This document shows, piece after piece, positions 2,500 through 56,366 of a DNA stretch of 64,000 nt. Positions within the stretch are counted from its first letter, which is position 1; every line of letters starts with the position of its first letter. Origin of the DNA: Hexactinellida sp. DTS-2022. Its lineage: Eukaryota; Porifera; Hexactinellida. The stretch spans positions 13,196,501 through 13,260,500 of the forward strand of contig JAPNXP010000001.1 of assembly GCA_028753945.1 (NCBI GenBank), written 5' to 3'. The notes beneath the pieces were generated by a model that worked only from the letters and a program-made list of their open reading frames with translations, was not told where the DNA came from and searched no databases. A program made the translations under genes and the position numbers.

Positions 2500-3469
2500 G
2501 ACTTTTATCCGTAGGGGCTTCCGCTATTGTTATGATAGAGAACACAGAGTCTATAGAGGGGGGTACAGATAAGGATAGGGCTATTAAACTGGTGTCTCTT
2601 GTTGAGAAGGGACAGGACATCAGGGCCCCGGGTACCGACATGATGGAGGGAGAGCTGGTGCTAGCGAGAGGCTCGCTAGTGGGTCCGCTTGAGATGGGAA
2701 TACTGGCAGCGGCAGGGGCTACGGGGTAAGGGTATTCTCGCGGCCTAAAGTCGCCGTGTTCTCGACAGGAGACGAGATACGAGATATCACAGATGCGAGT
2801 AACATAACAGAGTACACTGTTGTTGATACGAATCGCATTACACTGCTAGCCTTGCTACGTAGCGACGGGTATGCAGTGGAAGATTTGGGAATAGTCCGGG
2901 ACAACCCGGCAGAGCTGCAGAGTGCTATGCGTAAGGGACTGGCTAACTGCGAGGTGATAATATCCTCAGGAGGGATGTCAATGGGGAATAGAGACTTCTT
3001 TAAGCCCTGTCTGGAAGCGATGGGTTGTAAGATCTGGTTTGGGAAAGTTAAAGTTAAGCCGGGCAAATCTACTTGCTTCGCTACGCTTAATCACAATGGA
3101 AACCGGAGGTACATATTCGGGCTACCGGGTAATCCAGCCTCCGCTATTGTGACGTATATTCTGTTTGTGCGGAAATGTCTCGGAATTCTGATTGGGAGAA
3201 GTGGCCCCTGTAACCCTGAGGTTCCGGTTATGACCAAACAGAGCATAGCGCTAGGGGACCGTACTGAGTATAGGCGTATCTCGCTAGAATGGAAAGCAGG
3301 GAAACTGATGGCAGTCGACACGGGCGGACAACAGAGCAGTAAGATTCTGAGCATGAGGGGAGCCCAAGCGCTAATGCGGATACCTGCAGTAGATGAGAGT
3401 ATCAGTGATAGGATAGAGAAGGGGAGTGTGATGAGTGCTGTGCTGATCACACCGTGGATTAACCAATAA
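2500..3469 (+). CDS. Gephyrin/MoeA-like molybdenum cofactor enzyme, 3' part, one frameshift
   Basis: About 315 codons closely match the C-terminal (E/MoeA) half of gephyrin, the cytosolic enzyme that inserts molybdate into molybdopterin. Recognisable landmarks are GASAIVMIENTE, GQDIRAPGTDM, VAVFSTGDE, the MPT-binding IISSGGMSMG, KPGKSTCFATL and FGLPGNPASA, followed by the C-terminal beta-barrel. It ends at TAA (3467-3469). A one-base deletion in the G run near 2727 splits the frame: upstream codons run to a TAA at about 2727, and downstream codons continue from about 2730 in another frame. It could be a real mutation or an assembly error. The 5' end has no start codon. Acceptor-like AGs at about 2495 and 2512 suggest an internal exon. 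Everything upstream in the window is gypsy sequence, so the N-terminal half is outside the window or lost. Confidence 0.85.
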
Positions 3470-3956: not shown

Positions 3957-5573
3957 TTATTGAAAGATTTGCATAATAGTAACTATTTCACTGCGACATA
4001 TTGGACATGGTTTCTGTTCATCTATAAAGTGTTGCCCACAGTTTTTGCATAAATTCGCGTGACCACATGGAACTAGCGCGAACGTTACTTGTTTAGTTTT
4101 GCAACATATTAAGCAAAGATTATTAATTCCTTCATTTGCATCATTTTCATCATATCTCGAGTCCTCATTCTCAGTCTCTGTATTATTTATGGTGATGTAC
4201 TGTGCCGAATTCTGTTTCCCTATGTAGCCGACTGTGAGTGATATAGAATTGAGGTATTGCTGATTCGAATATATTCCATTCATTAATTTATCTTTACATT
4301 CCTTCCTAAATTGAGCATTTACAATATGCTTTCTCTTTGGGTTTCGGGTAATATTGAGCCCTTGTTCTAACCTCTGGTACTCACTTTCAAAATCAATTAT
4401 TATCTTCTTCATATCTGATACGAATTTCCATGAGTTTGGGTGATGAACTTTAACAACGGATTTCAATGTTTTATGGAAAGATTCTGCACCATTGTTTGTT
4501 GCATGTTCAGAAGAAAATATAGATAAATTCTTTTCTCCAAGAATCCAAGTCTTTTTGTAATATCTTTTAAAAGTGTTGATTAGATTGTTTACAATTTCAC
4601 CCATTTCAAAATTTTGTGCTTCCAATTGAGAAAATATTTCTATGATCTCACTCTCAGGTAACCAGGGTAATGCCATCAACTTTCTGAGCCAGCTGGAAAA
4701 TTCAGAATCCCTTTTGTAAACAGTTGAAAGTCCTAAAACTTGCGCTTTCTTCCAGATTGCCTGGGTGAAATGAAACCAGCAGCCAGTGATCTGTATTCCT
4801 GGGAATAATCGTTTGAAAACATTCCTAGGTGCCTTTTCGAAATCGCTGATGGCCATTTTTGGAGAAAATTCAGGAATTATTTCGAGTAATTTCACGAGAA
4901 CTGTAAAGTATAGCTCTTCGGTCTTATTTTGCATCAAAATGTGAACAGCAGGAACACTGTGTCGATTAAATGATATGAAAATTGTGAATAGCTGGTAAAA
5001 TAAACGCGGTACTGTGTAGAATGTGCCATCAAATTGAATTTGTTGAGCTACCTTTAGCTTCTCGAGCATGAAGTCTGATGCTAGAATAACTGCTGACCCT
5101 CCATTAATATTAACAGTTGCCTTATACAAATGGGAATATGGAGTTTCAATAATTAGTTGGCAGAAATCTTGAATATCCTTTGGGAGAGGTGGGAGTAATT
5201 TTCTTCTTCTTTTGCACATGCTACTTTCTATTTCTTGAAATGATACCAATGTGCTAGCAGGATCTCCCCGACATGTATTATTGAAAACTTCGCGTAATTT
5301 TTCTGAGTCACATTCAGCGGCTCTTTTCAACTGATTCCGTAAAGCGATTTCGGGACGTTTGTATGCATTCTCATCATGGTGGTGTTCCCGTGTTAACCTT
5401 AAAGTATTAGCAACATGATCAATATGAGCATATCCTGGACATCCTGAGGCTCTATTGAGTGTGCATTTAACGTAGGAGCAACTTTGGGAGGAGCGAACTT
5501 TCACGTATAAATAACCTCCTGATTCGTAATTAAGAGAATTAACCTTTTTCCCTTCAACCATAGAATATTCCAT
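3957..5573 (-). CDS. MULE transposase with N-terminal FLYWCH finger and C-terminal RING
   Basis: The protein is 538 aa from the ATG at 5571-5573. Upstream in-frame codons are TA-rich simple sequence, so this start is preferred. Residues 25-70 form a FLYWCH-type zinc finger (YLYVKVR, C-x5-6-C spacing, GCPGYAHID, REHHHDE). Residues 160-370 are the MULE transposase core with D182 (QFDGTF), D244 (AISDFEKA), the C265-x2-H268 motif (GCWFHF) and E364 (TNNGAESFH), the usual DDE layout with the insert between the second D and E. Residues 487-538 are a C3HC4 RING (CLIC, VPCGHANLC, CPIC). The transposase would cut and paste the element by binding its repeat-rich ends. The RING suggests a ubiquitin-ligase activity of unknown purpose. 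The frame is uninterrupted, so the element may be recently active. Confidence 0.9.
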   Translation of the reverse strand: MEYSMVEGKKVNSLNYESGGYLYVKVRSSQSCSYVKCTLNRASGCPGYAHIDHVANTLRLTREHHHDENAYKRPEIALRNQLKRAAECDSEKLREVFNNTCRGDPASTLVSFQEIESSMCKRRRKLLPPLPKDIQDFCQLIIETPYSHLYKATVNINGGSAVILASDFMLEKLKVAQQIQFDGTFYTVPRLFYQLFTIFISFNRHSVPAVHILMQNKTEELYFTVLVKLLEIIPEFSPKMAISDFEKAPRNVFKRLFPGIQITGCWFHFTQAIWKKAQVLGLSTVYKRDSEFSSWLRKLMALPWLPESEIIEIFSQLEAQNFEMGEIVNNLINTFKRYYKKTWILGEKNLSIFSSEHATNNGAESFHKTLKSVVKVHHPNSWKFVSDMKKIIIDFESEYQRLEQGLNITRNPKRKHIVNAQFRKECKDKLMNGIYSNQQYLNSISLTVGYIGKQNSAQYITINNTETENEDSRYDENDANEGINNLCLICCKTKQVTFALVPCGHANLCKNCGQHFIDEQKPCPICRSEIVTIMQIFQ

Positions 5574-5879
5574 TTGGCAAACAATAGTAAACAATAAATA
5601 TCCAATATTTTTTCCGTTGAATATGAGTATACTATATACGTATATATATATCGTATATATATATATAAATATGACATGCAGCCATTCAAAGAAGTGGTTA
5701 AATGTTATTATTTCCCACTTCACTTGAACAATTGAAGTATTTTTTATCACTCTTCTCGATTTGTTTAATGCATTGTTGTTCGCTATCTACTTTTAACAAT
5801 TGTGTGAGAATAAATTCGTACCTCAAAAGTGCAAAGGTTTCTCAATACTTAGATCAAATTCCCACGTTGGTCAAACTCC

Positions 5880-10331: not shown

Positions 10332-12398
10332 ATGGCAACACAACAAAGTCTAAAGCAGAGTAAAGCAGAGAAGCTGATTGGTCAGTACCAACAGAGACTG
10401 ATAGAGATTAAATCCATCGACATAAATGAAATCGGTTCGGAAGGAATGGAAGAATTATGCGATGGATTTAAATTAGAAATAAATACACTGCACAGCAAGA
10501 AGGCTGCCATACTGTCAGAGCAGACACGAGCCTCTATAGAGGATAGCTATCTACTGATAATAGAGCAGTACCGAAATATAGCGAGTGCTACTCGTGATAT
10601 GGATAAGGTGTGTTCACAGCTAGAATATGTAGAAACAGCGGAAGAACTTATAGAAATGGGAATACAATTAATGCGAGCAAATCAAGTGATTGAAAAGTTG
10701 AAGTCGAACAAAACTATGAAAGAATCCATAAAACAAACTCTATTAGAAAAGTTTGATTCACAAATGCAGGAAATTACGAATTTCTTCACCAACAACTATT
10801 TCCCAGTTGAATTCAAAGACAGCATATTCCTGATAGAGGCAACGCTAGCTGAGCCCGAGCTATGGACACTACCTACCCTCATTATGTGGAGGGAAACTGC
10901 CAAGGCGAAAATAAGAAGGATTCAGCGCATGAAAGAACACCCAAAGACTTCAATCCCAGCAATAATATGTGATAATATTATCACAAAGTACCAGTCACTG
11001 GTTAAACAACTGCAAGCTGAGATTCTAAAGTTAAGAACCTACCCCATACCGGAGCCCTGGTGTTCTCATGTTATGAGACAGGGTGCTACACACCTGATAA
11101 AAGGGGAATTCATATTCTTCGTGCATCCCGGAATAGAGGAGGACATGAGACCTCTGAACCTGTCCGATAGGGACCTACTGTCCGGGGGGATATCCCGTCA
11201 GGAATACGAGACACGACTAAACAGGGTAAATACAGAGACTGCATTAGCGATTGGAAAGCTAGAAGATACAAATGCGAGTGGTATGGATACACATCTTAAA
11301 TGGTTTGAGAGTTCTTATTTGAGAATTGAGGAGGATGTAAACTTCGCTTTCACAGAACTGAGAGATCTGTACAGAGACGCACGGAGCCTCGAGTACCTAG
11401 TTGACAAGAACCAAGATGATGTGCTGCTGAAGACAATATACGATGGGGTTCTCAGAACTATACGACACTATTTTGACAACAGAATCGATATTCCTTCGGT
11501 AGCCATTGATATTAGTAATGACCCAATTCAAACAGCTCCGCCAATGGAAGAGAGGAACATACCCACGGCGTCTGGCATTGATAGAGGAGGGGATCGTTTC
11601 ATCAATTTAGTCACACCAGGTTCTGTCATTGTAGTTAAGCAATCAGTGATAGTAGCAGACGGATACGGACACAGAGTATCACGGTACAGAAAAAGTAATC
11701 TAGAATGCAAGGCTTCCTGGTATAACGACAAATACGATACTCCTGTGTCACTAACCTACTTCAAGGGGTCCCTATATGTAAGCTTCAAAGATATATTAAT
11801 ACCATTTACACTGACATGGAAAGATTCTCAAATAGTTCGCATGGAACGCAAGACTCCAATGGCTATCCCGCAGATAAGCTGCACAGCAAGCAATGAGGAT
11901 AATCTGTATGTGGGGACTGTAGCACCGAGTCTGCTGCTGATTAACACGGACACCAACAGCGTAGAGAGAGAGTACCCTCTGCAGGTTATGCGCTACGAGA
12001 CCAGCCACAAGAAAGCGAGCAGATATCCGTGGTTGCAGGACATGAAAGCTGCCAATAATGTCATAATCTGTCTCTTCACGGGGTCTCCATCTCCTCTCCA
12101 GATATTCTCCTTCGAAGGAGAACTCATTCGGTCTGTAATAACAGAAGACCAGATTACAGAGGCGTACCACTTTGCTATCTACACTAATGCAGTCACGGGG
12201 GAGATGAGATATTACATCTCAGACTTTTGGGACAACGCCATAAAGGTGTTTGATAGAGAGGGTGTGTACATAGAGAGTATCCTCGAGGAGGGAACAGAAC
12301 TGTGTCAGATCTCCAGACCGACAGGACTATTCATAGAGCAGACAGGCTACATAACGTACTGTGACATGAAGGAGAACAACTGCATACAGAGACTCTGA
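10332..12398 (+). CDS. Coiled-coil NHL-repeat (TRIM-like, RING-less) protein
   Basis: Intronless, 688 aa. Residues 1 to about 215 are charged and helical, with several coiled-coil stretches (for example YQQRLIEIKSIDINEIG and RRIQRMKEH). Residues 215-420 are a mixed linker. From about residue 422 there are NHL-type beta-propeller blades: GSVIVVKQSVIVADGYGHRV, DNLYVGTVAPSLLLINTD, YYISDFWDNAIKVFDREG, and SRPTGLFIEQTG near the end. This is the layout of TRIM-NHL proteins without RING and B-box. Such propellers bind RNA or protein partners, and the partner here is unknown. The ATG follows an A-rich leader (AACAAACAA). The gene lies antisense within the large intron of the SLC38-like gene and, being intronless, may have arrived as a retrocopy. 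An NHL pseudogene lies at 18.4-19.2 kb. Confidence 0.85.
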   Translation: MATQQSLKQSKAEKLIGQYQQRLIEIKSIDINEIGSEGMEELCDGFKLEINTLHSKKAAILSEQTRASIEDSYLLIIEQYRNIASATRDMDKVCSQLEYVETAEELIEMGIQLMRANQVIEKLKSNKTMKESIKQTLLEKFDSQMQEITNFFTNNYFPVEFKDSIFLIEATLAEPELWTLPTLIMWRETAKAKIRRIQRMKEHPKTSIPAIICDNIITKYQSLVKQLQAEILKLRTYPIPEPWCSHVMRQGATHLIKGEFIFFVHPGIEEDMRPLNLSDRDLLSGGISRQEYETRLNRVNTETALAIGKLEDTNASGMDTHLKWFESSYLRIEEDVNFAFTELRDLYRDARSLEYLVDKNQDDVLLKTIYDGVLRTIRHYFDNRIDIPSVAIDISNDPIQTAPPMEERNIPTASGIDRGGDRFINLVTPGSVIVVKQSVIVADGYGHRVSRYRKSNLECKASWYNDKYDTPVSLTYFKGSLYVSFKDILIPFTLTWKDSQIVRMERKTPMAIPQISCTASNEDNLYVGTVAPSLLLINTDTNSVEREYPLQVMRYETSHKKASRYPWLQDMKAANNVIICLFTGSPSPLQIFSFEGELIRSVITEDQITEAYHFAIYTNAVTGEMRYYISDFWDNAIKVFDREGVYIESILEEGTELCQISRPTGLFIEQTGYITYCDMKENNCIQRL

Positions 12399-25413: not shown

Positions 25414-25975
25414 TGCACTCAAAGCCAAAAGTATTTGAACATCAGTATTATGGATTCATATATTCAAGCTTCTAGCAACATAATAACATCAGTAGATACT
25501 TCAAAATGGATGTTGACATAAAATGATATGTTAAGTATAATAAAATGACAAAATATTTGATTATAAATTTTTATGGAGGTGTTAAACTCATTAACTATAT
25601 AATTAGCTAATTAAAAATATAATTTCTGATCATTATGAGGCAATTAGAATATACAAATTCAGATTGAAGATTTGATTACTACATAGTATAATAACTATAG
25701 GTTCACAATTTCTACCATTGAGATGCCACTGAGATACAGCCACATTCCCATTAGTGTCACTCGTTCCACAAGTAGAAAGTGACAGAAACACATATGCCAC
25801 TTCATAAATAATGCAAATAATTGACTTAAAATAACTATGTTATGAAGTTTAGAACCATAACAATAAATTAAATTACATTTTAGAGTAGTTTAAACAGCCG
25901 TCAACAAACTATTAGAAGCATATTGTGTATGGAATATAATTCCTGTTGTCCAAATACTTTTGGCCGGTCAGTGTA
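25414..25975. mobile_element. Tc1/mariner-like element R3, copy a
   Basis: The left end contains GCCAAAAGTATTTGAACA; the right end, read inward, contains ACACTGACCGGCCAAAAGTA, the wording typical of Tc1 termini. About 560 bp, non-coding. It is shared with 50250-50775 and partly with 46865-47020. Its right edge is about 50 bases before the ATG of the first NACHT gene. Confidence 0.65.
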
Positions 25976-26025
25976 TTTATCCAATATATAATACTCTACA
26001 ATTCTCTAGGCTCTACCATTGTCGA

Positions 26026-29000
26026 ATGGATATCTCTGAACTAACTGCGTTGACAGATCTATCGAATGAATTAACAATTGGTGACGTTAAGCAAATACGA
26101 AATGAAATTGGAATACCAGAAGCCTTGTGTGAAGATTTGTCGCAAGTTACGAAGTTTCTTTTTGCAATCAGAAGATGGACGGGACACAAACCGTTCCTTT
26201 TTTATATGGCCCTAAAGCGTGTGAGGCCTGAATTAACGGAAAAAGCATGTAAAGTTAGATGGCTTTGCAATTCCTCGCCCGACGGGACTGAATTCCAACA
26301 AGAAGAAATGTTATCCATTAAAACACTGGTGCAACTTTTGAAATCAGAAATAACTAATGTGCAATGGCTACTCATCTACATGACTGTAACATCTGAAGCA
26401 AAGGAAAATGTTAGTTTTTCTGATACACTGAGCCTGCTAATGGCGAAAGGTCTGGTTAAGAAAGACCTGAGTGCACTATGTGAAATCATTAAAGGAATCC
26501 AGAGGGAGGATGTCGTGAGAAAACTTCAGGTTTACAGGAATCTATTCATCCAAATGGATGATGGTGAATTTGAAAACAAATTTAAGCGAGAATTGACAAG
26601 TCAAGTCAAAGAAATGAAACAGTGGGATGCCAATTTGAAAGATTTCTTACAAATCCAACACAGCACAGTTCAACAAATGTTGGGAGATGTCGTATCGGTT
26701 AATCTAGCAGAGGTGTTCATCGACTTAACAATCCTAAAAGAGCAACCTCGACCCATTAATATCCAAGATGAAACAACCTACAACGAGATTGCCTATCTCA
26801 GAAAGATTGCTAACAAAGAGGTAACAATACAGCCAGTTGATTTCACAAAAGAATTGACGACATATGAATCTAAAAAGCCGGAAATTTGGTGCATCATAGG
26901 CAACCCCGGCAGTGGCAAAACATTCCTGGCCAAGCGAACAGCCCTCAGATTTAGTAGTAACGAACTAACAGGGATTCAATACTCAATCTCAATTCCCTGC
27001 CGCAATGAAGAATGGCATTCCATGGAGGTAGCAAGAATCCAGGAGGATAAGAAAGTCGACTCGGTATTTATACAAAAATGGATCTGTCTGGGATTGCCGG
27101 TTGGGCCCAGTTGGACAAACGATTTGGCGAAGCACTTGAATGAATCGAGTGGAGATGGAGTCCTGTTCATTATCGACGGACTAGATGAGTTTACCAGGAA
27201 AGTGCCGTTCGAGAAAACATTGCTATGTTTGCTGCTGACCCGTCAAGCCATGATAAAAGCAACCATAATTCTAACGAGTCGCCCCGGGGCATGGACTGAC
27301 ATCTCCTCTGCACACGAATTGAAAGTGAACCGGTACTACCAGGTGCTTGGGTTCTCGCCAGCCAACAGAGACCTATACTTCGAGAAACAAATACGCAACG
27401 AAAAGAAACTGGCAGAATGCAAGAGTTTGCTAAAGCGACACGACGAAATGGATCAGCTCTCGTTAATCCCAGTAAATGCGTCCCTTTTCGCAGCTCTGCT
27501 GAAAGGAGAAGACTCCACTCTCATTAACACTCTGACAAACCTCTACTACGAATTAACGCTTTACCTGATAAGGAGAGAACTGGCCCGAACGGGACTACCA
27601 GAATTCACACGGGTGGAACGCATATCCGATCTCCATGCCGACATACTTGAATGCCTAAGTAAAGTAGGATTCATCGCAATGCTCGGGGTAGCGAACAGAG
27701 AACTAACATCGGAGGAAAACGTGCCTCTAACAATCGGACAAGATGTATACCCCAGTCAGTGCTTAGGTCTAGCTCACGAGCACTACAGAACTAACTCTGT
27801 CGGATTGATAACCAAGGTGTGGACATTTGTGCATCTGACCATGCAGGAGTTCGTCTCTGCTCACTGGGTTAGCAACACTTCCTGGACAAAGCAGTGCTTC
27901 AGCATCAGGTACATATCCCACTCAGTTGATAACTTCTCGCTTTTCAAAATGGTGACCAGATTCCTGTGCGGGCTCGTGACAGAAAAAGCAGCGGTTTTGC
28001 TAGTCATTATGTACAGGCACCTAACCCCGCAACCAATCCCAATGATTGGAATGCCTATTACTTTCCAGCTAAGATATAGAGATATATATGGCATGAGTGT
28101 GTGGGAAGAATTCACTAAAATATTTTTCGAATTAATCGCCATTGTATATGAAACAAATTCACTTTCATTAGCTACCTGGTTTAATAACTTCAAAGAGTAT
28201 TTTCCTACTCACATATACCTCTATGTGCGACAAGCCGTCTCTCCAAATGAATGGTTTTGTTTCTGTCAGTCTCTCAAACTTGTTAATCGAATTCAACTCA
28301 TTTACATCAACACTAGTCGCATCAAGCCAACTCAGTTCAAATGTTTGATACAGGAAATGGGAATTTGTTCAATTAATTTATTAGCTTTGTACTTCTACAA
28401 ACAAGATTCCACTACAGTCCTGTCATATACCGAAACAATTAGAGAGACAGGAATTAAGTCTGACACTAAAGTTAGTATTGAGCTATCCAACTGTGATCTC
28501 AGTGCTGAGACAGATGTTAATCTCTTTCCTACACCAACCAATCAGATTATACACAGCTTGAGACTAACTTTGAATGAATATTCACATAAAGCTCTTCAGG
28601 AATTAACCAATCTATTCTCTGCTATTCAATGCTTATTTGTTTGGGAATATGATACTAATTACGTCACTATGGTACCAGCTCTGTGTCAGGCGACACAACT
28701 AAGAGTATTACACCTCGAAAACATTCCTTCTAAACTCATTCCTAGCCTAACAGCTGTGCTACCTCAGTTCTCTAAGCTACAAGAGATTGCATTTGAGAAT
28801 ACCTCACTGCTACCTGCAATTACTCATCTGTCAAATATAACTTATCTACAGATACAAGATACAACTAAAGACACAACTCTCTGTGAATATTTGTTGCAGA
28901 TTATTAATGGGAACAGACACACATTAAGAGGAATGGATTTGTATAATTTGGACAGTATTGGATTGAATAATTGGAGTTTACTTCTCAATCGTTTTGAACT

Positions 29001-29367
29001 TTGCACTAATTTAGTTCATCTAAAGCTATGGGACATTACTCTACCAACTAATGATGTCACTCAGTGGAGTAGCGCTATTAAACAAATGAAGTCTTTAGTT
29101 GAATTGGAATTCTATACTGTCTCCCTCTATGACACAGGATTATTATCTCTCTGTGAAGGCCTGATATACCATCCTGCTATTAGGAGTATAGAGCTAACAG
29201 ACTGCAAGCTGACCTATCTATCCTGTGAGCCTCTAGCTAACCTAATTCCAACTGTCTCACAGCTGGAGACACTGAGTGTTAATGAACTATCTGAACCTGA
29301 CAGAGATCCTATCTCATTACTCAAGGAAACAGCTGATGAGTTTGGTATTGAGCTTAACCTGGATTAA
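26026..29367 (+). CDS. NACHT-LRR (NLR-type) receptor 1
   Basis: Intronless, 1113 aa from the ATG at 26026, which matches the start of the paralogue at 52149 (MDIS / MDIT). Residues 1-85 and about 105-190 look like two helical death-fold modules. Residues 285-440 are the NACHT NTPase: Walker A GNPGSGKTF near 292, Walker B LFIIDGLDEF near 380, sensor IILTSRPGAW near 413. A helical region with FVHLTMQEFVSA follows, as in NLR winged-helix segments. From about residue 770 come degenerate leucine-rich repeats (LRVLHLENI, LQEIAFENT, ITYLQIQD, LVHLKLWDI, LVELEFYTV) to the end. NLRs are cytosolic sensors that oligomerise through NACHT and signal through death folds. The ligand is unknown. A Tc1-like element ends 50 bases upstream, so the promoter probably lies in or next to it. 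Confidence 0.93.
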   Translation: MDISELTALTDLSNELTIGDVKQIRNEIGIPEALCEDLSQVTKFLFAIRRWTGHKPFLFYMALKRVRPELTEKACKVRWLCNSSPDGTEFQQEEMLSIKTLVQLLKSEITNVQWLLIYMTVTSEAKENVSFSDTLSLLMAKGLVKKDLSALCEIIKGIQREDVVRKLQVYRNLFIQMDDGEFENKFKRELTSQVKEMKQWDANLKDFLQIQHSTVQQMLGDVVSVNLAEVFIDLTILKEQPRPINIQDETTYNEIAYLRKIANKEVTIQPVDFTKELTTYESKKPEIWCIIGNPGSGKTFLAKRTALRFSSNELTGIQYSISIPCRNEEWHSMEVARIQEDKKVDSVFIQKWICLGLPVGPSWTNDLAKHLNESSGDGVLFIIDGLDEFTRKVPFEKTLLCLLLTRQAMIKATIILTSRPGAWTDISSAHELKVNRYYQVLGFSPANRDLYFEKQIRNEKKLAECKSLLKRHDEMDQLSLIPVNASLFAALLKGEDSTLINTLTNLYYELTLYLIRRELARTGLPEFTRVERISDLHADILECLSKVGFIAMLGVANRELTSEENVPLTIGQDVYPSQCLGLAHEHYRTNSVGLITKVWTFVHLTMQEFVSAHWVSNTSWTKQCFSIRYISHSVDNFSLFKMVTRFLCGLVTEKAAVLLVIMYRHLTPQPIPMIGMPITFQLRYRDIYGMSVWEEFTKIFFELIAIVYETNSLSLATWFNNFKEYFPTHIYLYVRQAVSPNEWFCFCQSLKLVNRIQLIYINTSRIKPTQFKCLIQEMGICSINLLALYFYKQDSTTVLSYTETIRETGIKSDTKVSIELSNCDLSAETDVNLFPTPTNQIIHSLRLTLNEYSHKALQELTNLFSAIQCLFVWEYDTNYVTMVPALCQATQLRVLHLENIPSKLIPSLTAVLPQFSKLQEIAFENTSLLPAITHLSNITYLQIQDTTKDTTLCEYLLQIINGNRHTLRGMDLYNLDSIGLNNWSLLLNRFELCTNLVHLKLWDITLPTNDVTQWSSAIKQMKSLVELEFYTVSLYDTGLLSLCEGLIYHPAIRSIELTDCKLTYLSCEPLANLIPTVSQLETLSVNELSEPDRDPISLLKETADEFGIELNLD

Positions 29368-30271
29368 CTTCTCACCTCTGCTATCAAGGTATGTATTCAC
29401 TTTATTATCTGTTAATAATGTCTACTCCGCTTAATCGGGTCACTTTGGTTCGAGGATAATTGACTAGATTAGGCGGAGAAATCGATAAACCGAAAGTATG
29501 TTACTTAGAGGTTCTTTATTAATTGTATACAGTCCTACTGGTAGGAATCCTATAGTATAGACCACGGGTACCCAACTCAATTTTAACTGCGGGCCACATG
29601 GCCACATTGGTTTCCTAAAATATTTAGGTGGTCCATATAGGCCAATTGATAAATTTCAGATATATTAGGGAGAAATAGGTTGGGATATCCAAACGGAAAA
29701 GGTTAAGAAACACAAAATGATCAAAAATATTAACCGGATTAAATTTCTCGGGCCGTATGTTGGGAATCCCTGCTTTAGACCTTAGTTGTTTAATACGTAC
29801 ATCTTCTATTGGATAAGTATCATGTATAATACGCATAATGTAAACATGTTATACATATACCTTGATTAATATCGCGCTCTTTGAATTTGCTTATAACAAC
29901 TTTCGGTTTATCGATATTATTTTATTGACAATCGAATTTAGAATTTGATTATATGCTGCATCTTGTATGTATTTACAACAAGATTTAAAAATATACAACT
30001 GAATTTACTTCGAAATAGGCATGTTTTCGATGGATAGCGAATTACGTACAATGCGTATTATACGTATTTTACATATACTAATTACAAAATTTGGACACAA
30101 ATAACATAATTTTGACGCAATTATACAATTTTTAAAAATTAGCTTCAAGTTGCACGATTTTCTTCCCAAACAAGACGGTTGACTACATTAACCACTAATG
30201 TATTTGTTTCCATCATCATTATCCATGTAACTGTTTATATAGTTTGTTGTTGTTACAACATTCTAAACCGA
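29368..30271. other. Downstream region of NACHT gene 1
   Basis: The first 60 bases after the stop resemble the region after gene 2 (CTGTTAATAATGTCTACTCC), and contain AAG|GTATGT, a possible 3' UTR splice donor. 29424-29480 is a fragment of a CTCCGCTTAAT-type pogo MITE. The rest is AT-rich without features. Confidence 0.5.
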
Positions 30272-30395
30272 ATTTCCACCAGGGTTGCCAACCCTCCCGC
30301 TTTGGCGGGAGTCTCCCGCATTTTGCCATTTTTTCTCTCATCCTCCCGACCTCCGCCAAACTTTTAAAACTCCCGCTTTTTGGAAATTGTTTATA

Positions 30396-30584
30396 TACAG
30401 TCGACTCCGCTTAATTGGGTCACATTGGGACCAGGTCTTTTTGACCCGATTAAGCGGAGAAACCGATTAACCGAAAATATTTTAAGCCAAACTGTAATTC
30501 CGTCCCATAAATCCGGTGAAAATTTGACCCTATTAAGCGGAGAAACCGATTAACCGGTGTCCCGATTAAGCGGAGTCTACTGTA
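30396..30584. mobile_element. Pogo-like MITE, family E (CTCCGCTTAAT type)
   Basis: TA-flanked, ends CAGTCGACTCCGCTTAATTG and, inward, CAGTAGACTCCGCTTAATCG, with GATTAAGCGGAGAAACCGAT repeated inside. Confidence 0.85.
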
Positions 30585-30796
30585 TTTAGATTTTATGATA
30601 ATTAAGTAAATAACGGGATTTGTTTTAATTATTCAAGTAAATTAGTCAACCTACGAGCAACAAGTTTTTTAGTTGTAGTTTTTAATTTTCAGTTTTTTTT
30701 CGAGTACCAAGTTTTTTTCCTAATTGTAGGTATCAAAACCTACTAAATAATCATATTATATCGTTCTATTCATGATGGATTTTTAAAAATAGCATA

Positions 30797-30984
30797 TACA
30801 GGTAAACCTCCCAAAGCGGCACCCATCGGGAGAATGATTCTGTGCCGCTTCTCGGAGTTTGCCGCTTTGGGAGGTTGCTCGTAAGGTAAAACTCCCAAAG
30901 CGGCACCCATCGGGAGAATGATTTTGTGCCGCTTCTCGGAGGTTGCCGCTACTCGGAGGTGCCGCTTTGGGAGGTTTACCTGTA
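30797..30984. mobile_element. Pogo-like MITE, family D, duplicated internally
   Basis: TA-flanked, ends CAGGTAAACCTCCCAAAGCG. Two successive hairpin units (30797-30890 and 30890-30984) suggest one copy inserted in or duplicated beside another. Confidence 0.8.
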
Positions 30985-31102
30985 TATTGAGTCTCCCGCT
31001 TTTCTCCCGCTTTTTCATCTTCGACCTCCCGCTTTTTGGTAAAACTCCCGCCAAAATTGGCAAAATCTCCCGCTTTTTTGTTTTCAGAGGTTGGCAACCC
31101 TG

Positions 31103-31400
31103 ATTTCCACTTGCCTCTAAGTGATATTTAACTTCCACTAACAGTTCTATAAGAGCCATTAACCACTGCATCTATATTTAGCTAACAACTGCTATACAGA
31201 TAGTTATTAGCCACTTGGTTAACCACTCCCTCTGTTTGATACCTTCTCTGTCTCCTCTAGACTACACCTCGTATTCCTCTCCTCTCCAGTCTCCCTCTCG
31301 TTCTCATCTGTTTATTCGTATTTGGAACTAACTTTAGTGTTTATTTGTGTATTCTCTTGTTTGTATTTATCAATAAACTCTCTATCAATTGAATTCTGGT
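31103..31400 (+). promoter_or_regulatory. Conserved 3' module of NACHT gene 1 with AATAAA
   Basis: About 290 bases almost identical to 55978-56290 after gene 2, including CTCTAGACTACACCTCGTAT and a pyrimidine-rich TCCTCTCCTCTCCAG-like tract. AATAAA lies at 31372-31377 (ATTAAA in the other copy). I infer this to be the distal 3' UTR, possibly reached by splicing from AAG|GTATGT just after the stop. Confidence 0.5.
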
Positions 31401-31779
31401 CGATATGATTGAGTCTACTGTATATTAATTACTAGCATAAGTGTACTTCAGTAGTTCCCAATCTGGAAGCATGGAACCCTTAAGTATACACGGGTGGCTG
31501 TAGGGTGTCCACAAGATGTATTAAGGGTCAATGGGAGGGGTCCAAAGAATGACTATAAGGGGGCACTTTTGTAAAATGTTGGGAATCTCTACTGTAACCA
31601 CCTCATATTATAATACTCATCTATTGAGTTGATAGAAACAAATAAGTGTTTTAGGACTTAGAAGCGAGATATTTAACTCGTTAACTCTAACTAGCAGCAT
31701 GACAATTGGTAGCACTTCCCATAGCTCGATACAAATCCAATTCTAACCAAATTGTTATTATTTGTAACAGCGACGTTAA

Positions 31780-43998: not shown

Positions 43999-44070
43999 TA
44001 CAGTCTACTTCGCTTAATTGGGACACGTTTGTTCCAGGCCACTTGTCCCAATTAATCGGAGATCTCAATT
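43999..44070. mobile_element. Pogo-like MITE fragment, family E variant
   Basis: TA followed by CAGTCTACTTCGCTTAATTG, with GACAC and TGTCCCAATTAATCGGAG. A related right half lies at 49630-49713, and others near 44405 and 51540-51660. Confidence 0.55.
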
Positions 44071-49758: not shown

Positions 49759-49932
49759 TACAGTTGACTCCGCTTAATAGAGCCACCGGTTAATAGATTT
49801 CTTCGCTTAATGGGGTCAAAGTTTCGCAGGATTTATAGAACGGAATGAGAGTTTGGCTTAAAATATTTTCGTTTGATATATTTTTCCAAGTAACTTGGTC
49901 CCGAGGTGACTCTATTAAGCGGAGTCGACTAT
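49759..49932. mobile_element. Pogo-like MITE, family E
   Basis: TA-flanked, ends CAGTTGACTCCGCTTAATAG and, inward, AGTCGACTCCGCTTAATAGA. Confidence 0.8.
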
Positions 49933-51320: not shown

Positions 51321-52148
51321 TATCCAATTAGCATGAGATTTGTGCAATTGTGAGAAACAGAATTTCAAATTCCGCCCCCAAAGCGAGCCGCTGTGGGCTC
51401 GTGCCCCATTGCCCCCCTTTGTTATGCCAACGCCTATTTAGATATATTGTTGTAGCTTTATCAGAATTGATCAATATTATTTGACTTTGTTCCAATTAAT
51501 ATGAATTAACTAATGAGCGAGCACCCATTTCAACCCAATTTGTTGAGTTTTGTCCCGATTAACTGGAGTTTGTCCCGAAAACTGAAATTCTTTGGTATTA
51601 ACTTCCATGGCAAGGCTTTGGTTCTTTGGGGGTTGTCCCAATTAAGCGGTTGCTACAGTATTAGCTAAGGGACTTAAAAGCTCATAAATAACTGGCTTAT
51701 AACTACGTATCCATTGAATACTGTTTTTAAAAAGCTATCGTTATCAAATTTCCAAATTATAAATTGATAATTAGGTTATCATGAATTTACGGAATGGATG
51801 AGGCCAAAATTTGGGGTTTGGTACTTAACTCCCCAATCCGAGGCCCAATTGTCTACGGCTACGACTTATTTAACTGGATCTGACGCATAATTGGCTAAAA
51901 GCTCGAACAAGCGATCAAATTAAGCAGAATGTGCTTTAGTTCAATAAAATTCGGCACAAACTAGAAGACATTGACATTTCCGAATACACGTTTTCAATTG
52001 GAAATTTGGCTCAATAAATTCCAAAATAAATTAATTGTAATATGTAGTCAAAACCAATTTAGTATAAACAAATTAAGCTTGTAGAATTGGTATACTCATT
52101 GCATTTATATCAATTATTTATACATGTAGGTTGACTTATTTCTGTGCT

Positions 52149-55100
52149 ATGGATATCACAAATCTAATTGCAATGAAGGAATTGTCAGCTAATCTGACAG
52201 AAGGAGATATCATTAGAATACGAGAAGTGATTGGTATTCCTGCTGGGCTCTGCGAGAGAGTTACCACAGGAACTCAGTTGCTAACAGCAATCAAGAGATG
52301 GAAACAGCACAATCCGCACCTGTTCTATCTGGTCCTACAGAGCATAAGACCCGACATGATAGCAGTAGCGAACAGACTGCCATGGCTATGTGCGTCTTCT
52401 CCCAGCGAATTTGAGAGCAGAGGAGAAGAACTGTCCATTAAATCCCTAATTGAACTGCTAAAGTCAGAAATAAAGACAGAGGAATGGCAGTTGATTTACA
52501 TGCATATCGAAACCGAGGCAGGAGAGAATATCGGATTTGAAATGACGATTGAAAAACTGCTGGAAAACGATTTACTCCAAAAAGACCTCATAAACCTATC
52601 TACTCTGCTAGGAGGAATAGACCGAAGTGATGTAGTCAATAAACTGGGACAATATTCAAAGGTATTCTCCGAGTATCAAGAAGGGGAATTTGAAACTAAA
52701 CTCAAGCGGGAATTGAATAAACAAGTGAGAGAGATGGCACAATGGGAGCAGAGACTGAAACAGTTCGCATTGATACAATACGAAACTGTCAAACAAATGA
52801 TTGGAGATAACGAGTCTGCCATGCTAGCACACGTGTACGTGGATCTGACAATAATGAAACAGAAGCCTAGACCTATTGACCTAGCAGACGAGACCACTTA
52901 CAACGAGATAGCGTACCTACGCAAGATAGCAAACAGAGAAGTTAAAATAGAACCAGTTGACTTCTCAGAGGAATTACGTAAACATGAACTCTTGAAACCA
53001 GAGATCTGGTGCATCATAGGCAACCCGGGTTGCGGAAAAACATTCCTAGCAAAGCGAACAGCACTAAGGTTCAGCAGCAGCGAACTAGTCGACATCAAAT
53101 ACTCCATCTCAATACCCTGTCGCAACACTGACTGGCATGCTATGGAGGCCACACGATACGAAGAGAAGACAAAGGTAGATTCAGAGTTTATACAAAAGTG
53201 GTTTTGTCTAGGCTTGCCAGTTGGAACCAGTTGGTCAAATGATCTAGCCAAGCACCTAAGCCAATCAGATGGAGAGGGACTCTTGATTATAATAGACGGA
53301 CTGGACGAGATTCCGCAAAAGGTTCCCTTTGAAAAGACCTTCCTATGCTCTCTACTGACCCGTCAATCCCTCACAAGATCAACAATAATTCTAACGAGTC
53401 GACCCGGCGCATGGACTAGCATATCCTCTGCAAACGAACTGATCATAGACCGTTACTATCAGGTGTTGGGCTTCTCGCCAGAGAATAGGGATCTGTACTT
53501 CAAAAAACAGATCACAAATGAGTCAAAACTGAAATACTGTTGGAAGTTAATGGAGCGACACGACGAAATGAATCAACTATCTCTAATACCAGTCAACGCA
53601 TCGTTATTCGCGGCACTACTGAAAGGAGAGGATTCTACCTCCATTAACACGCTAACCAAGCTCTACTACGAATTAGTACTGTACATGATCAGGAGAGAAC
53701 TATCTAGAATGGGCCTAAAAGAGTACTCTCGAGTCTCACGCATTTCAAACCTCCACACAGACATACTAGCCTGCTTGCATAGAATAGCATTCATAGCAAT
53801 CCTCGGAGTGGCAAACAGAGATCTGGTATCGGAAGAGACAGTGACTCTCAATTTGGGACAGGAAGAATACCCATGCCAGTGCTTAGGTCTAGCTCACGAG
53901 CACTACCGAAAGGAATCCGTCGGACTTATGAAACAAGTGTGGACATTTGTCCACCTGACTATGCAGGAGTTCGTATCTGCCCTCTATTTAGAACACACTA
54001 GCTGGATTAAGCAGTGCTACAGTGTTAGGTATATTTCCCACTCCGAGGCTAACTTCTCTCTGTTCCGAATGGTAGTCAGGTTCCTCTGTGGACTCCTGTC
54101 TGATAAAGCAGCTGCTCTTCTTTCCATCCTATACAGGTACCTGACTCCTCGGCCCATTCAGCTAATCGATATGCCTATGAGCTATCAACTTAACTACTGT
54201 GATTTGTATCACCATGAAGGTTGGAATCTATTCACCAAAATATATTTCCAATTAGCCTCAATTTTGTTTGAAAGTAACTCAGATTCAATTCCATTTTGGT
54301 TCAATAACTTCAAACAACACTTTCCGATGCCAGTGTATCTGTATGTACGAGAATCCGTCTCTCCCAATGAATGGATTTGTTTTATTCAGACTCTCAAACT
54401 TGTTTGTCGAATTCATCTCATATTTATCGACACTACCCATATCAATCCGACTCAATTCCACTCTTTGATCCAGGAAATGGGAATTTGTTCCATTAATTTA
54501 TTAGCTTTGCGATTCTATGAGAAAGATTCCACTACAGTCCTATCCTATACCGAAACTATTAGAGAGATAGGAATTAAGTCTGACACTAAAATTAGTATTG
54601 AGCTATCCGACTGTAATTTCAGTGCTGAGACATATGTTAATATCTTTCCTACGCCAACCAATCAGTTTATAGACAGCTTGAGCCTAAGTAGTAATAATTT
54701 ATATAAATTTTCACATAAAGCTCTTCAGGAATTAACCAATCTATTCTCTGCTATTCAATGCTTACGTGTTTATGAATCTAGAACTAATTACGACACTATG
54801 TTACCAGCTCTGTGTCAGGCGACACAACTAAGAGTATTACACCTCCGTGACATTGATTCTAAACACATTCCTAGCCTAACAGCTGTGCTACCTCAGTTCT
54901 CTAAGCTACAAGAGATTGCATTCAATAAGTACTCACTGCTACCTGCAATTTCTCATCTGTCAAATCTAACTTATCTACAGATAAGTTATGGTACAACTAG
55001 AAACACAACTCTCTGTGATCATTTGTTACAGATTATTAATGGGAACAGACACTCATTAAGAGGAATGCAATTGTGCAATTTGCACAAATTTGGATTGAAT

Positions 55101-55511
55101 AATTGGAGTGTACTTCTCAATTGTTTGGAACTGTGCACTAATTTAGTTCAGCTAAAGCTATGGCTCATTACTCTACCAACTAATGACGTCACTCACTGGA
55201 GTAGCGCTGTTAAACAAATGAAGTCTTTAGTTGAATTGGAATTCGTTTTTAACTCCCTCTATGACGCAGGATTATTATCTCTCTGTGAAGGCCTGATATA
55301 CCATCCTGCTATTAGGTGTCTAAAGCTATTAGACTGTAAGCTGACTTCTCTATCCTGTGAGCCTCTAGCTAACCTAATTCCAACTGTCTCACAGCTGGAG
55401 AGACTGACAGTCAATGAACTATCTGAACCTGACAGAAATGCTATTTCATTACTCAAGGATACAACTGATGAGTTTGGTATTGAGCTTAAGCTAGAGCTTA
55501 AGTTGTATTAA
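52149..55511 (+). CDS. NACHT-LRR (NLR-type) receptor 2
   Basis: Intronless, 1120 aa from the ATG at 52149. Same architecture as the gene at 26026: two helical death-fold-like modules (1-85 and about 105-190), NACHT with Walker A GNPGCGKTF near 291, Walker B LIIIDGLDEI near 379 and sensor IILTSRPGAW, the helical FVHLTMQEFVSA region, then LRRs to a slightly longer C-terminus (ELKLELKLY). The N-terminal and NACHT halves differ from the paralogue at many silent and replacement sites. The LRR halves are near-identical at silent sites but differ at strand positions. Presumed cytosolic sensor; ligand unknown. The 1.37 kb upstream contains element X and other repeats. A conserved 3' module follows at 55978. 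Confidence 0.93.
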   Translation: MDITNLIAMKELSANLTEGDIIRIREVIGIPAGLCERVTTGTQLLTAIKRWKQHNPHLFYLVLQSIRPDMIAVANRLPWLCASSPSEFESRGEELSIKSLIELLKSEIKTEEWQLIYMHIETEAGENIGFEMTIEKLLENDLLQKDLINLSTLLGGIDRSDVVNKLGQYSKVFSEYQEGEFETKLKRELNKQVREMAQWEQRLKQFALIQYETVKQMIGDNESAMLAHVYVDLTIMKQKPRPIDLADETTYNEIAYLRKIANREVKIEPVDFSEELRKHELLKPEIWCIIGNPGCGKTFLAKRTALRFSSSELVDIKYSISIPCRNTDWHAMEATRYEEKTKVDSEFIQKWFCLGLPVGTSWSNDLAKHLSQSDGEGLLIIIDGLDEIPQKVPFEKTFLCSLLTRQSLTRSTIILTSRPGAWTSISSANELIIDRYYQVLGFSPENRDLYFKKQITNESKLKYCWKLMERHDEMNQLSLIPVNASLFAALLKGEDSTSINTLTKLYYELVLYMIRRELSRMGLKEYSRVSRISNLHTDILACLHRIAFIAILGVANRDLVSEETVTLNLGQEEYPCQCLGLAHEHYRKESVGLMKQVWTFVHLTMQEFVSALYLEHTSWIKQCYSVRYISHSEANFSLFRMVVRFLCGLLSDKAAALLSILYRYLTPRPIQLIDMPMSYQLNYCDLYHHEGWNLFTKIYFQLASILFESNSDSIPFWFNNFKQHFPMPVYLYVRESVSPNEWICFIQTLKLVCRIHLIFIDTTHINPTQFHSLIQEMGICSINLLALRFYEKDSTTVLSYTETIREIGIKSDTKISIELSDCNFSAETYVNIFPTPTNQFIDSLSLSSNNLYKFSHKALQELTNLFSAIQCLRVYESRTNYDTMLPALCQATQLRVLHLRDIDSKHIPSLTAVLPQFSKLQEIAFNKYSLLPAISHLSNLTYLQISYGTTRNTTLCDHLLQIINGNRHSLRGMQLCNLHKFGLNNWSVLLNCLELCTNLVQLKLWLITLPTNDVTHWSSAVKQMKSLVELEFVFNSLYDAGLLSLCEGLIYHPAIRCLKLLDCKLTSLSCEPLANLIPTVSQLERLTVNELSEPDRNAISLLKDTTDEFGIELKLELKLY

Positions 55512-55977
55512 CTTCTCATCTCTGCTAATAAGGTTTGTATTCACTTTATTATCTGTTAATATTGTCTACTCCGCTTAATCGAGTAACTTTGTTCGCAGGA
55601 TAATTGACAAGATTAAGCGGACGTATACAGCTAGATTATGAATACGTACATATTCTTTGCACAGTGATATATAAATACATTTAAAGACTTACTTGACACA
55701 ATTAATCGAATATAGACCCTCTTAAATGAATATTTTTAGCCATTACTTTGCCAATTAAGCAAAAGCTTTTCCAAGAATAACGTATTTAGACTCCAATAAC
55801 ATAATTTTGACCCTATTAACCAAAATATTTGATCCATTTGCATGACTTGGTTCCTAAAATGAACCTATTAAGCTTTTGACACCATTATCCACAGAATCTT
55901 TTTGTATTTGTTTACTATCATTATCTTTGTTACTATTTATATAGTTTGTTGTTGTTTACAACATTATATACCGAATT

Positions 55978-56290
55978 CCATTTGACTCTAAGTGATATTT
56001 AACTTCCACTAACAGTTCTATAAGAGCCATTAACCACTGCATCTATATTTACCTAACAACTGCTATACAGATAGTTATTAGCCACTTGGTTAACCACTCC
56101 CTCTGTTTGATACCTTCTCTGTCTCCTCTAGACTACACCTCGTATTCCTCTCCTCTCCAGTCTCCCTCTCGTTCTCATCTGTTTATTCGTATTTGGAACT
56201 AACTTTAGTGTTTATTTGTTTATTCTCTTGTTTGTATTTATCATTAAACACTCTCTCAATTGAATTGTGTTCGTCTTACTGAGTCTACTT
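55978..56290 (+). promoter_or_regulatory. Conserved 3' module of NACHT gene 2
   Basis: Almost identical to 31106-31400. ATTAAA replaces AATAAA near 56245. The region 55565-55640 between stop and module is a degraded family E MITE remnant also present after gene 1. Confidence 0.5.
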
Positions 56291-56366
56291 TAATTAATGC
56301 AATCCTTTACATAACTAAACAATACATATACGTACATTAATCTGCTTAAAAACCAGTTTTCACTTA

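Follow-up and report, generated by a model that had tools for sequence, protein, structure and literature searches.

Probable paralogue exchange and diversifying selection in the leucine-rich repeat segment of a glass sponge NACHT receptor family

In the zebrafish NLR-B30.2 genes, a family of NOD-like receptors (NLRs), the NACHT groups are described as distinct, and the low synonymous divergence of the recognition module across these groups is ascribed to gene conversion; the ratio of replacement to silent divergence (dN/dS) is high at exposed hypervariable regions, and most of the genes lie on one chromosome arm (PMC4852459). For the RPP8 genes of Arabidopsis, intergenic gene conversion among paralogues was reported, together with discordant trees for the leucine-rich repeat (LRR) and non-LRR parts and a clustering of amino-acid diversity at the X positions in the motif XXLXLXXXX (PMC6771003). 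Here we analyzed a 64,000-nucleotide stretch of DNA (the window) from the glass sponge Hexactinellida sp. DTS-2022 (assembly GCA_028753945.1, contig JAPNXP010000001.1, hereafter C1, positions 13196501-13260500), which carries two NACHT-LRR receptor genes, A and B, and compared them with their relatives in the same assembly. The explanation that we favor, with a probability of roughly 0.8, is that paralogues exchange LRR segments from a common pool and that very strong diversifying selection acts on the predicted ligand face.

The het-d and het-e NWD genes of Podospora carry a NACHT domain, and the NLRs of Amphimedon were reportedly the subject of a 2014 paper. Concerted evolution of the recognition surface and positive selection at few surface codons are described for the Podospora genes (PMC1805685), and in highly variable plant NLRs the predicted specificity residues cluster on LRR surfaces (PMC8226289). 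The NLR repertoire of the demosponge Dysidea avara includes a large NACHT-LRR expansion (PMC12909245); a word search of the main text of that paper found 0 uses of 'selection', 'gene conversion' or 'recombination'. A literature search judged by titles and abstract openings, with many subscription papers outside its scope, found no description of exchange and selection acting on sponge LRRs.

Silent divergence along genes A and B and their paralogues

The open reading frame (ORF) of gene A spans 25960-29367 and that of gene B 52131-55511, with the ATG codons chosen at 26026 and 52149 (Table 1). Both products match NACHT (Pfam PF05729) above cut-off, and NACHT was matched in all 16 of the aligned family members. 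The match of gene A to the death effector domain (DED) is weak (E 0.0087, 16.7 bits against a cut-off of 35.9), as are those of 9 of the 16 members at E <=0.5 (best 3.3e-5). No Pfam LRR model matched gene A above cut-off; residues 968-1085 matched ribonuclease inhibitor LRRs in a phmmer search (9.8e-15), and 12 strand motifs could be read in the LRR consensus of the family, so that the C-terminal LRR of an NLR is recognizable from both. The products are probably intracellular sensors with a NACHT domain and, in part of the family, a weakly matched DED.

The genome searched comprises 112 Mb in 18 contigs of one assembly. A NACHT search returned at least 94 matches. A DNA search with the LRR, in which 40 of the 67 candidates were scored, returned at least 44, some of them fragments of the same copy; the best 30 loci were fetched and 14 of the 44 matches were not examined. 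Of the fetched loci, 27 lie on C1 at 10.1-15.8 Mb, and 27 have a frame open to the stop codon, 24 of these on C1. The remaining three, all on C1, are broken in or near the LRR (by an in-frame stop in L021 and an early frame end in L022 and L033) and were excluded from codon counts. Three genes on other chromosomes (L036-L038) stand outside the C1 counts and were kept in a 27-gene, 351-pair table. Site models and linkage analyses exclude L010, L011 and L015, whose LRRs are near-identical, leaving 21 genes; the mosaic map excludes L044, L047 and L053. Two doubtful genes, L019 and L035, were kept: their frames open only after the first 75-97 nucleotides (nt) of the fetched sequence, with a possible break before that point, and they have no match among those returned by the NACHT search. 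Gene A and two copies (C1:13143481, 13224880 and 13376468) have LRRs that are 99-100% identical and a common 3' flank, and their 5' parts differ by up to ~9% (150-nt bins from 26,050).

The first-pass annotation had counted, by eye, roughly 45-50 amino-acid-changing and about six silent-only codons between genes A and B over about 260 LRR codons. The Nei-Gojobori method (NG86) bears this out, with 49 and 8 such codons among 257 (28580-29350; dN 0.121, dS 0.062), and 68 and 14 among 328 (28381-29364; dN 0.127, dS 0.086). In the shorter stretch 10.5 of 77 differences were silent where 23% was expected (binomial P 0.020 for 10 or 0.041 for 11), and in the whole LRR 18 of 107 (P 0.084), making this pair by itself modest evidence for a replacement excess. 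Outside the LRR, dS fell from 2.0 over NACHT to 1.25 over the adjoining segment and 1.13 over the part that runs up to 28,380. Thus, the low silent change between A and B is limited to the LRR segment.

The same boundary was seen among the 24 C1 genes (276 pairs, 25-codon bins). Silent divergence (pS) was 0.60-0.73 in most NACHT bins, with one bin at 0.37, and 0.22-0.57 in the middle segment; between 28,360 and 28,435 it dropped to 0.065-0.141, and this level was kept to the stop codon. Replacement divergence (pN) did not drop, at 0.04-0.24 upstream and 0.09-0.16 in the LRR. In 167 of the 276 pairs pS exceeded 0.5 over NACHT and the start of the helical segment (HD), while the LRR mean over all pairs was 0.103 (5-95% range 0.074-0.147), and LRR and NACHT-side silent divergence correlated with r 0.14. 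The three genes on other chromosomes were more distant in the LRR, with pS of 0.24-0.25, still under their NACHT values of 0.63-0.76. LRR distance rose slightly with physical distance (Spearman 0.24, over pairs that are not independent).

Of the 24 genes, 16 carry backbone M and 8 carry backbone T, two groups that are separated by fixed differences up to ~28,285. Past ~28,390, diversity between the groups was close to that within them, with one near-fixed site (28642 bin). Within M or T, silent divergence was 0.08-0.09 in HD and 0.16-0.18 in the pre-LRR part, which are under purifying selection. In a mosaic map (17 full-length genes, 50-codon bins), the number of classes was 6-7 at the N-terminus and 5-7 across NACHT, fell to 2-3 in the middle part that begins at ~27,512, and was one in the LRR from ~28,412, save for one LRR bin in which two genes stood out; two genes that were alike in N-terminal class were unlike in NACHT class. 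The NACHT, HD and LRR data rejected one another's trees in the approximately unbiased (AU) test.

Linkage was examined in the LRR of the 21 genes. Linkage equilibrium held among the twelve silent columns whose second codon occurs in at least 4 genes (4-9): mean r2 was 0.056 against a permutation mean of 0.068 (0.057, again over 12 columns, without L019 and L035), and all four gametes occurred in 91% of the 66 column pairs. In 11 of the 12 columns, both codons were found on both backbones. Linkage over 106 sites did not decay with distance, mean r2 being 0.116 at 1-2 bp and 0.046-0.065 from 3 bp up. Since a flat r2 could also come from single sites that change repeatedly under selection, the linkage argument is built on the 12 silent columns. 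The whole LRR block aligns in register in these genes, and exchange of single repeats was not seen among them.

We take these results to show that the LRR segment has been exchanged between paralogues, since it is alike at silent sites despite a near-saturated NACHT region and its variants are reshuffled. Where the first-pass annotation had proposed very recent common ancestry or conversion, exchange between paralogues stands, and recent duplication of whole genes does not agree with NACHT silent sites that are near saturation in most pairs.

Replacement changes on the predicted LRR face

Exposure was predicted solely from the LRR motif, and the anchors and offsets in this LRR follow the usual form of that motif. 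Selection at single sites was assessed with our own codon mixture model (P(omega>1)>0.95; 311 LRR codons, 21 genes). On the LRR tree 47 codons were selected, with posterior mean omega of 2.3 to 28.8, and on a star tree 50; twice the log-likelihood difference (2dlnL) was 693 and 1276, respectively. The M genes by themselves gave 51 selected codons, the two LRR halves with their own trees gave 42 of 157 (5') and 21 of 154 (3'), and omission of L019 and L035 gave 53 sites, with 34 of the 46 face codons among them.

The selected codons lie mainly on the predicted face, where they make up 32 of 46 positions against 15 of 265 elsewhere (Fisher P 2e-21). For the family, unlike the pair A and B, the excess and its placing thus lie well outside what chance would give. 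By offset from the second hydrophobic anchor, the selected share was 12/12 at +1, 8/11 at +2, 8/12 at -1 and 4/11 at +4; strand anchors were never selected (0/24), and off the strands the share was 7/184. Accordingly partitioned, dN/dS was 2.97 for face codons, 0.56 for anchors and 0.85 for the rest of the LRR. Over the whole LRR it was ~0.96 in the 27 genes, and 1.26-1.30 within backbone groups; the replacement excess sits in a minority of codons. The hypervariable recognition face under strong selection that was suggested at first pass is thus supported, and neither a face ratio of 1 or less nor an even spread of replacements was seen. The first-pass annotation had asked for an excess confined to concave strand residues; it is concentrated on their predicted positions, with 15 of the 47 selected codons lying off the face.

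Codons with at least six amino acids among the 21 genes were termed hypervariable. Gene A has 29, and a pair of genes differs on average at 22.7 of them. They are enriched in Y, W, R and E and depleted in L, P and A relative to the rest (Y 13.8% and W 4.4%, against 2.4% and 0.7% elsewhere). A second family, represented by five genes on C16 and one on C1 (L002 and L008 excluded), showed pN/pS of 1.06 in the first part of the LRR and 0.16 in NACHT; columns with at least three residues made up 10 of 20 face positions against 16 of 127 elsewhere (P 3e-4).

A directed diversification process, also raised by the first-pass annotation, would place the cause in mutation: face codons would be targeted by retroelement-templated mutagenesis, like that of diversity-generating retroelements (DGRs), or by a deaminase, with exchange as the spreader. 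At positions 1 and 2 of the variable codons all four bases do occur, often beside a fixed third base, and the hypervariable codons are rich in aromatic residues. In a star-tree approximation, replacement at the 29 hypervariable codons ran at ~10.4 times the neutral rate, and silent change at ~0.5-1 times (the grid was best at ~0.5 and worse above 1, and the optimizer ended at 1.01). The silent rate at nearby codons was 1.0. Hypermutation of face codons was rejected, a common rate for replacement and silent change being worse by 2dlnL 133, and silent positions of the same codons were not hit alike, as they would be in a DGR target. Nonsynonymous change at position 3 was not depleted (multiplier 1.2, 2dlnL 1.9). 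No template was recognized among the 30 aligned loci, with 14 further matches unexamined and no search for reverse transcriptase made. We regard targeted mutagenesis as highly improbable. Because the silent rate is not raised and the third position is not spared, change on the face is, within the star-tree approximation, a matter of selection and not of a raised or aimed mutation rate.

A low dS could also inflate the ratio if silent sites in the LRR were constrained by an overlapping function or an RNA signal. The silent drop is sharp and lies inside one exon, and a noncoding block downstream of gene A is strongly conserved too (2.8% divergence in its putative intronic part). Among 15 M genes, however, HD is equally low in silent divergence without the replacement pattern: pS was 0.078 in HD and 0.094 in the LRR, and pN 0.011 and 0.121, so that replacement is eleven-fold apart. 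In addition, the first 45 nt beyond the coding end are 89% identical, like the LRR silent sites, and the M/T grouping itself disappears in the LRR. Silent-site constraint was rejected by the HD control and these 45 nt, and we give it almost no credence.

Gene ends and the weighing of alternatives

Past the coding end, similarity between the genes is 89% to ~+45 nt, as far as the exchanged LRR segment of gene A runs, then 71-73% to ~+135 and lower beyond, where the alignment is gappy and matching bins are scattered. An intron of the 3' untranslated region (UTR), followed by a terminal exon, is suggested by the GTATGT past the stop codon of gene A together with the CTCTAG and AATAAA of a 328-nt block farther downstream. 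The middle part of the putative intron varies between copies. With the exception of L031, all of the 27 fetched C1 loci (26 of 27) are followed by the block, on the same strand and at a distance of 0.28-6.3 kb; among the listed matches of at least 200 nt at C1 loci, it is 91-98% identical to that of gene A. Alignment of 13 copies gives the block sharp edges, with divergence of 0.405 on its upstream side and 0.491 on its downstream side, and the part after the acceptor-like CTCTAG diverges by 9.0%, against 2.8% for the part before. The block is more alike between copies than are the LRR silent sites; no long open frame was found in that of gene A. With the block present at 26 of the 27 loci, the 3' flanks are not unrelated, and an argument for conversion from unrelated flanks at either end was dropped; this shifted the weight slightly from exchange with selection to the single burst considered below. 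Exchange would have proceeded by gene conversion and/or crossing over, which these data do not separate.

Directly past the stop codons of genes A and B lies a dispersed palindromic repeat of the CTCCGCTTAATCGGGTCAC type, with 11 matches in the window (<=3 mismatches). A longer form has 141 matches in the genome (75 + 66, <=2 mismatches) and 0 for a control. The gene A repeat folds as a strong hairpin (z -3.8), and the repeat looks like a small mobile element or miniature inverted-repeat transposable element (MITE).

Several observations weigh against exchange combined with selection, or against parts of it. The HD data rejected the NACHT tree in the AU and Kishino-Hasegawa (KH) tests and not in the Shimodaira-Hasegawa (SH) test (0.143). 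Among the 21 genes, no shared runs were found beyond those of a linkage-equilibrium null: the longest covered 38 variable sites, where null maxima average 36 with a 95% point of 44, and the mean longest run was slightly higher than the null (21.3 against 18.9, 0/300). Single exchange tracts were thus not seen, save for the whole LRR and 3' flank common to gene A and its two copies, which duplication also fits. Singletons predominate among the silent variants (63 of 92 variable columns; 12 of 17 in a stricter fourfold set), which is closer to a burst than to steady exchange. Beyond +160, 129 of 210 pairs match somewhere, 21 of them at a like distance; given this and the downstream block, crossing over may have carried the LRR along with the end of the gene. 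As to selection, the HD control (15 M genes, same threshold) yielded 3 of 165 sites with 2dlnL 6.4, and some of the selected LRR sites may for this reason be false positives; exchange itself violates the single-tree assumption of the codon model; and the anchors and offsets were set after the alignment had been inspected, so that anchor conservation is partly by choice. The analysis draws on one genome, home-made site models and motif-based exposure, and part of the pattern may reflect one older spread followed by independent change.

In its extreme form, the last point becomes a single burst, in which one LRR with its gene end spread through the backbones a single time; each copy would then have changed on its own under diversifying selection, exchanging little further and gathering ~5% silent divergence. 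The narrow range of LRR silent divergence across pairs, the weakly supported LRR tree, the predominance of singletons, the failure to see long shared tracts among the 21 genes and the downstream block common to the copies all agree with it. We nevertheless consider a single burst unlikely. The 12 common silent columns are in linkage equilibrium, and a strict star predicts 0.014-0.054 such columns where 1 was observed (51 fourfold sites), a difference that is weak by itself. Moreover, M genes and T genes each show little silent divergence in HD among themselves though the M NACHT region is near saturation, which argues for more than one spread.

Genes A and B belong to a large NACHT-LRR family centered on one chromosome, and under exchange combined with selection its C-terminal LRR-coding segment would form a common pool. 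The LRR would be the ligand-recognition face of an immune sensor, and selection would favor copies that differ at its predicted solvent-exposed concave side. Exchange would supply new combinations and try a new face on other NACHT and N-terminal backbones, with the LRR scaffold kept.

A stronger version, which we regard as a long shot, would make the LRR a bounded recombination module, in which programmed or hotspot-driven exchange reassorts face variants in the germline or even somatically. Its edges would fall at the NACHT/HD and HD/LRR junctions and perhaps at the conserved downstream block. If true, this would amount to a combinatorial LRR-built receptor repertoire in an invertebrate, with dozens of receptors.

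Table 1. Positions of the features of genes A and B and of the palindromic repeat in the window.
Feature	Position	Strand	Remarks
Gene A, NACHT-LRR receptor	26026..29367	+	One long coding exon, 1113 aa; putative start codon
Gene A, weak DED match	26344..26538	+	Residues 107-171; under curated cut-off
Gene A, NACHT domain	26887..27399	+	Residues 288-458; E 4.9e-17, over cut-off
Gene A, HD/pre-LRR segment	27512..28285	+	Two main classes, M and T
Gene A, exchanged LRR segment	28390..29410	+	About one class among compared genes; silent divergence ~0.1
Gene A, 29 hypervariable codons	28486..29364	+	26/29 on face positions of 12 predicted strands
First bases of hypervariable codons 1-10	28486, 28489, 28561, 28567, 28570, 28576, 28630, 28636, 28642, 28651		
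First bases of hypervariable codons 11-20	28711, 28717, 28795, 28855, 28906, 28942, 28945, 28954, 29029, 29032		
First bases of hypervariable codons 21-29	29107, 29113, 29116, 29191, 29197, 29275, 29281, 29356, 29362		
Gene A, putative 3' UTR intron	29389..31260	+	AAG/GTATGT after stop, CTCTAG acceptor; called from motifs
Gene A, conserved noncoding block	31102..31429	+	Putative intron end and putative terminal exon; AATAAA ~31372
Gene B, paralogue	52149..55511	+	Layout as gene A; putative start codon
Gene B, counterpart of exchanged LRR segment	54510..55556	+	Edges placed by alignment to gene A
Gene B, copy of conserved downstream block	55973..56298	+	95% identical
Palindromic repeat, CTCCGCTTAATCGGGTCAC type	29425-29478, 30405-30575, 44008-44061, 49768-49924, 55569-55587		

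Elsewhere in the window, an ORF at 3957-5750 (-) encodes an unusual pairing, with a RING finger in the same frame as a MULE transposase domain. Molybdopterin-binding and MoeA C-terminal domains at 2756-3469 (+) form part of a gephyrin/MoeA-like gene. A 688-aa ORF at 10332-12398 (+) matched no Pfam family above cut-off, with a weak hint of NHL repeats.

Comparison with known systems

On neighboring bases of this LRR, homogenization and diversification appear to act together: silent sites and scaffold are evened out, and presumed contact residues change at about ten times the neutral rate. Among receptor repertoires it is an unusually clean case of the two combined. The nearly uniform background left by exchange makes the putative contact face readable from sequence, the residue after the second anchor being selected in 12 of 12 strands, and the ligand specificity of a large LRR-type repertoire becomes testable.

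The family shares with recognition families shuffled by exchange, such as zebrafish NLR-B30.2 and RPP8, a low silent divergence of the module across groups, reduced linkage and discordant trees, and positive selection at predicted exposed sites of the module. The zebrafish genes resemble it in a module alike at silent sites across groups and in selection at exposed sites. Their recognition module, however, is B30.2 and not the LRRs according to PMC4852459, whereas here it is the LRR itself, lying within one long exon with a sharp 5' edge and with 32 of 46 predicted face codons selected. RPP8 is alike in exchange between paralogues, discordant trees and diversity at X sites. It is a three-locus plant system studied across alleles, with an LRR Ka:Ks of 0.75-0.97 (PMC6771003); the present family, in contrast, has 24 copies on one chromosome of one assembly, an LRR pN/pS of 1.26-1.30 within groups and NACHT regions near saturation.

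In Podospora, WD40 repeats are exchanged as units within and between genes (PMC1805685), in contrast to the whole LRR block here. The highly variable plant NLRs are described by allelic diversity between lines (PMC8226289), whereas the genes compared here are paralogues with a common LRR pool. Dysidea avara shares with this family the NACHT-LRR expansion. The idea that exchange and selection together build innate repertoires, known from B30.2 in fish and from LRRs in plants, is extended here to a NACHT family and its LRR. The same two forces are known from zebrafish NLR-B30.2, RPP8 and, on WD40 repeats, Podospora NWD; in the present family the LRR itself is the module.

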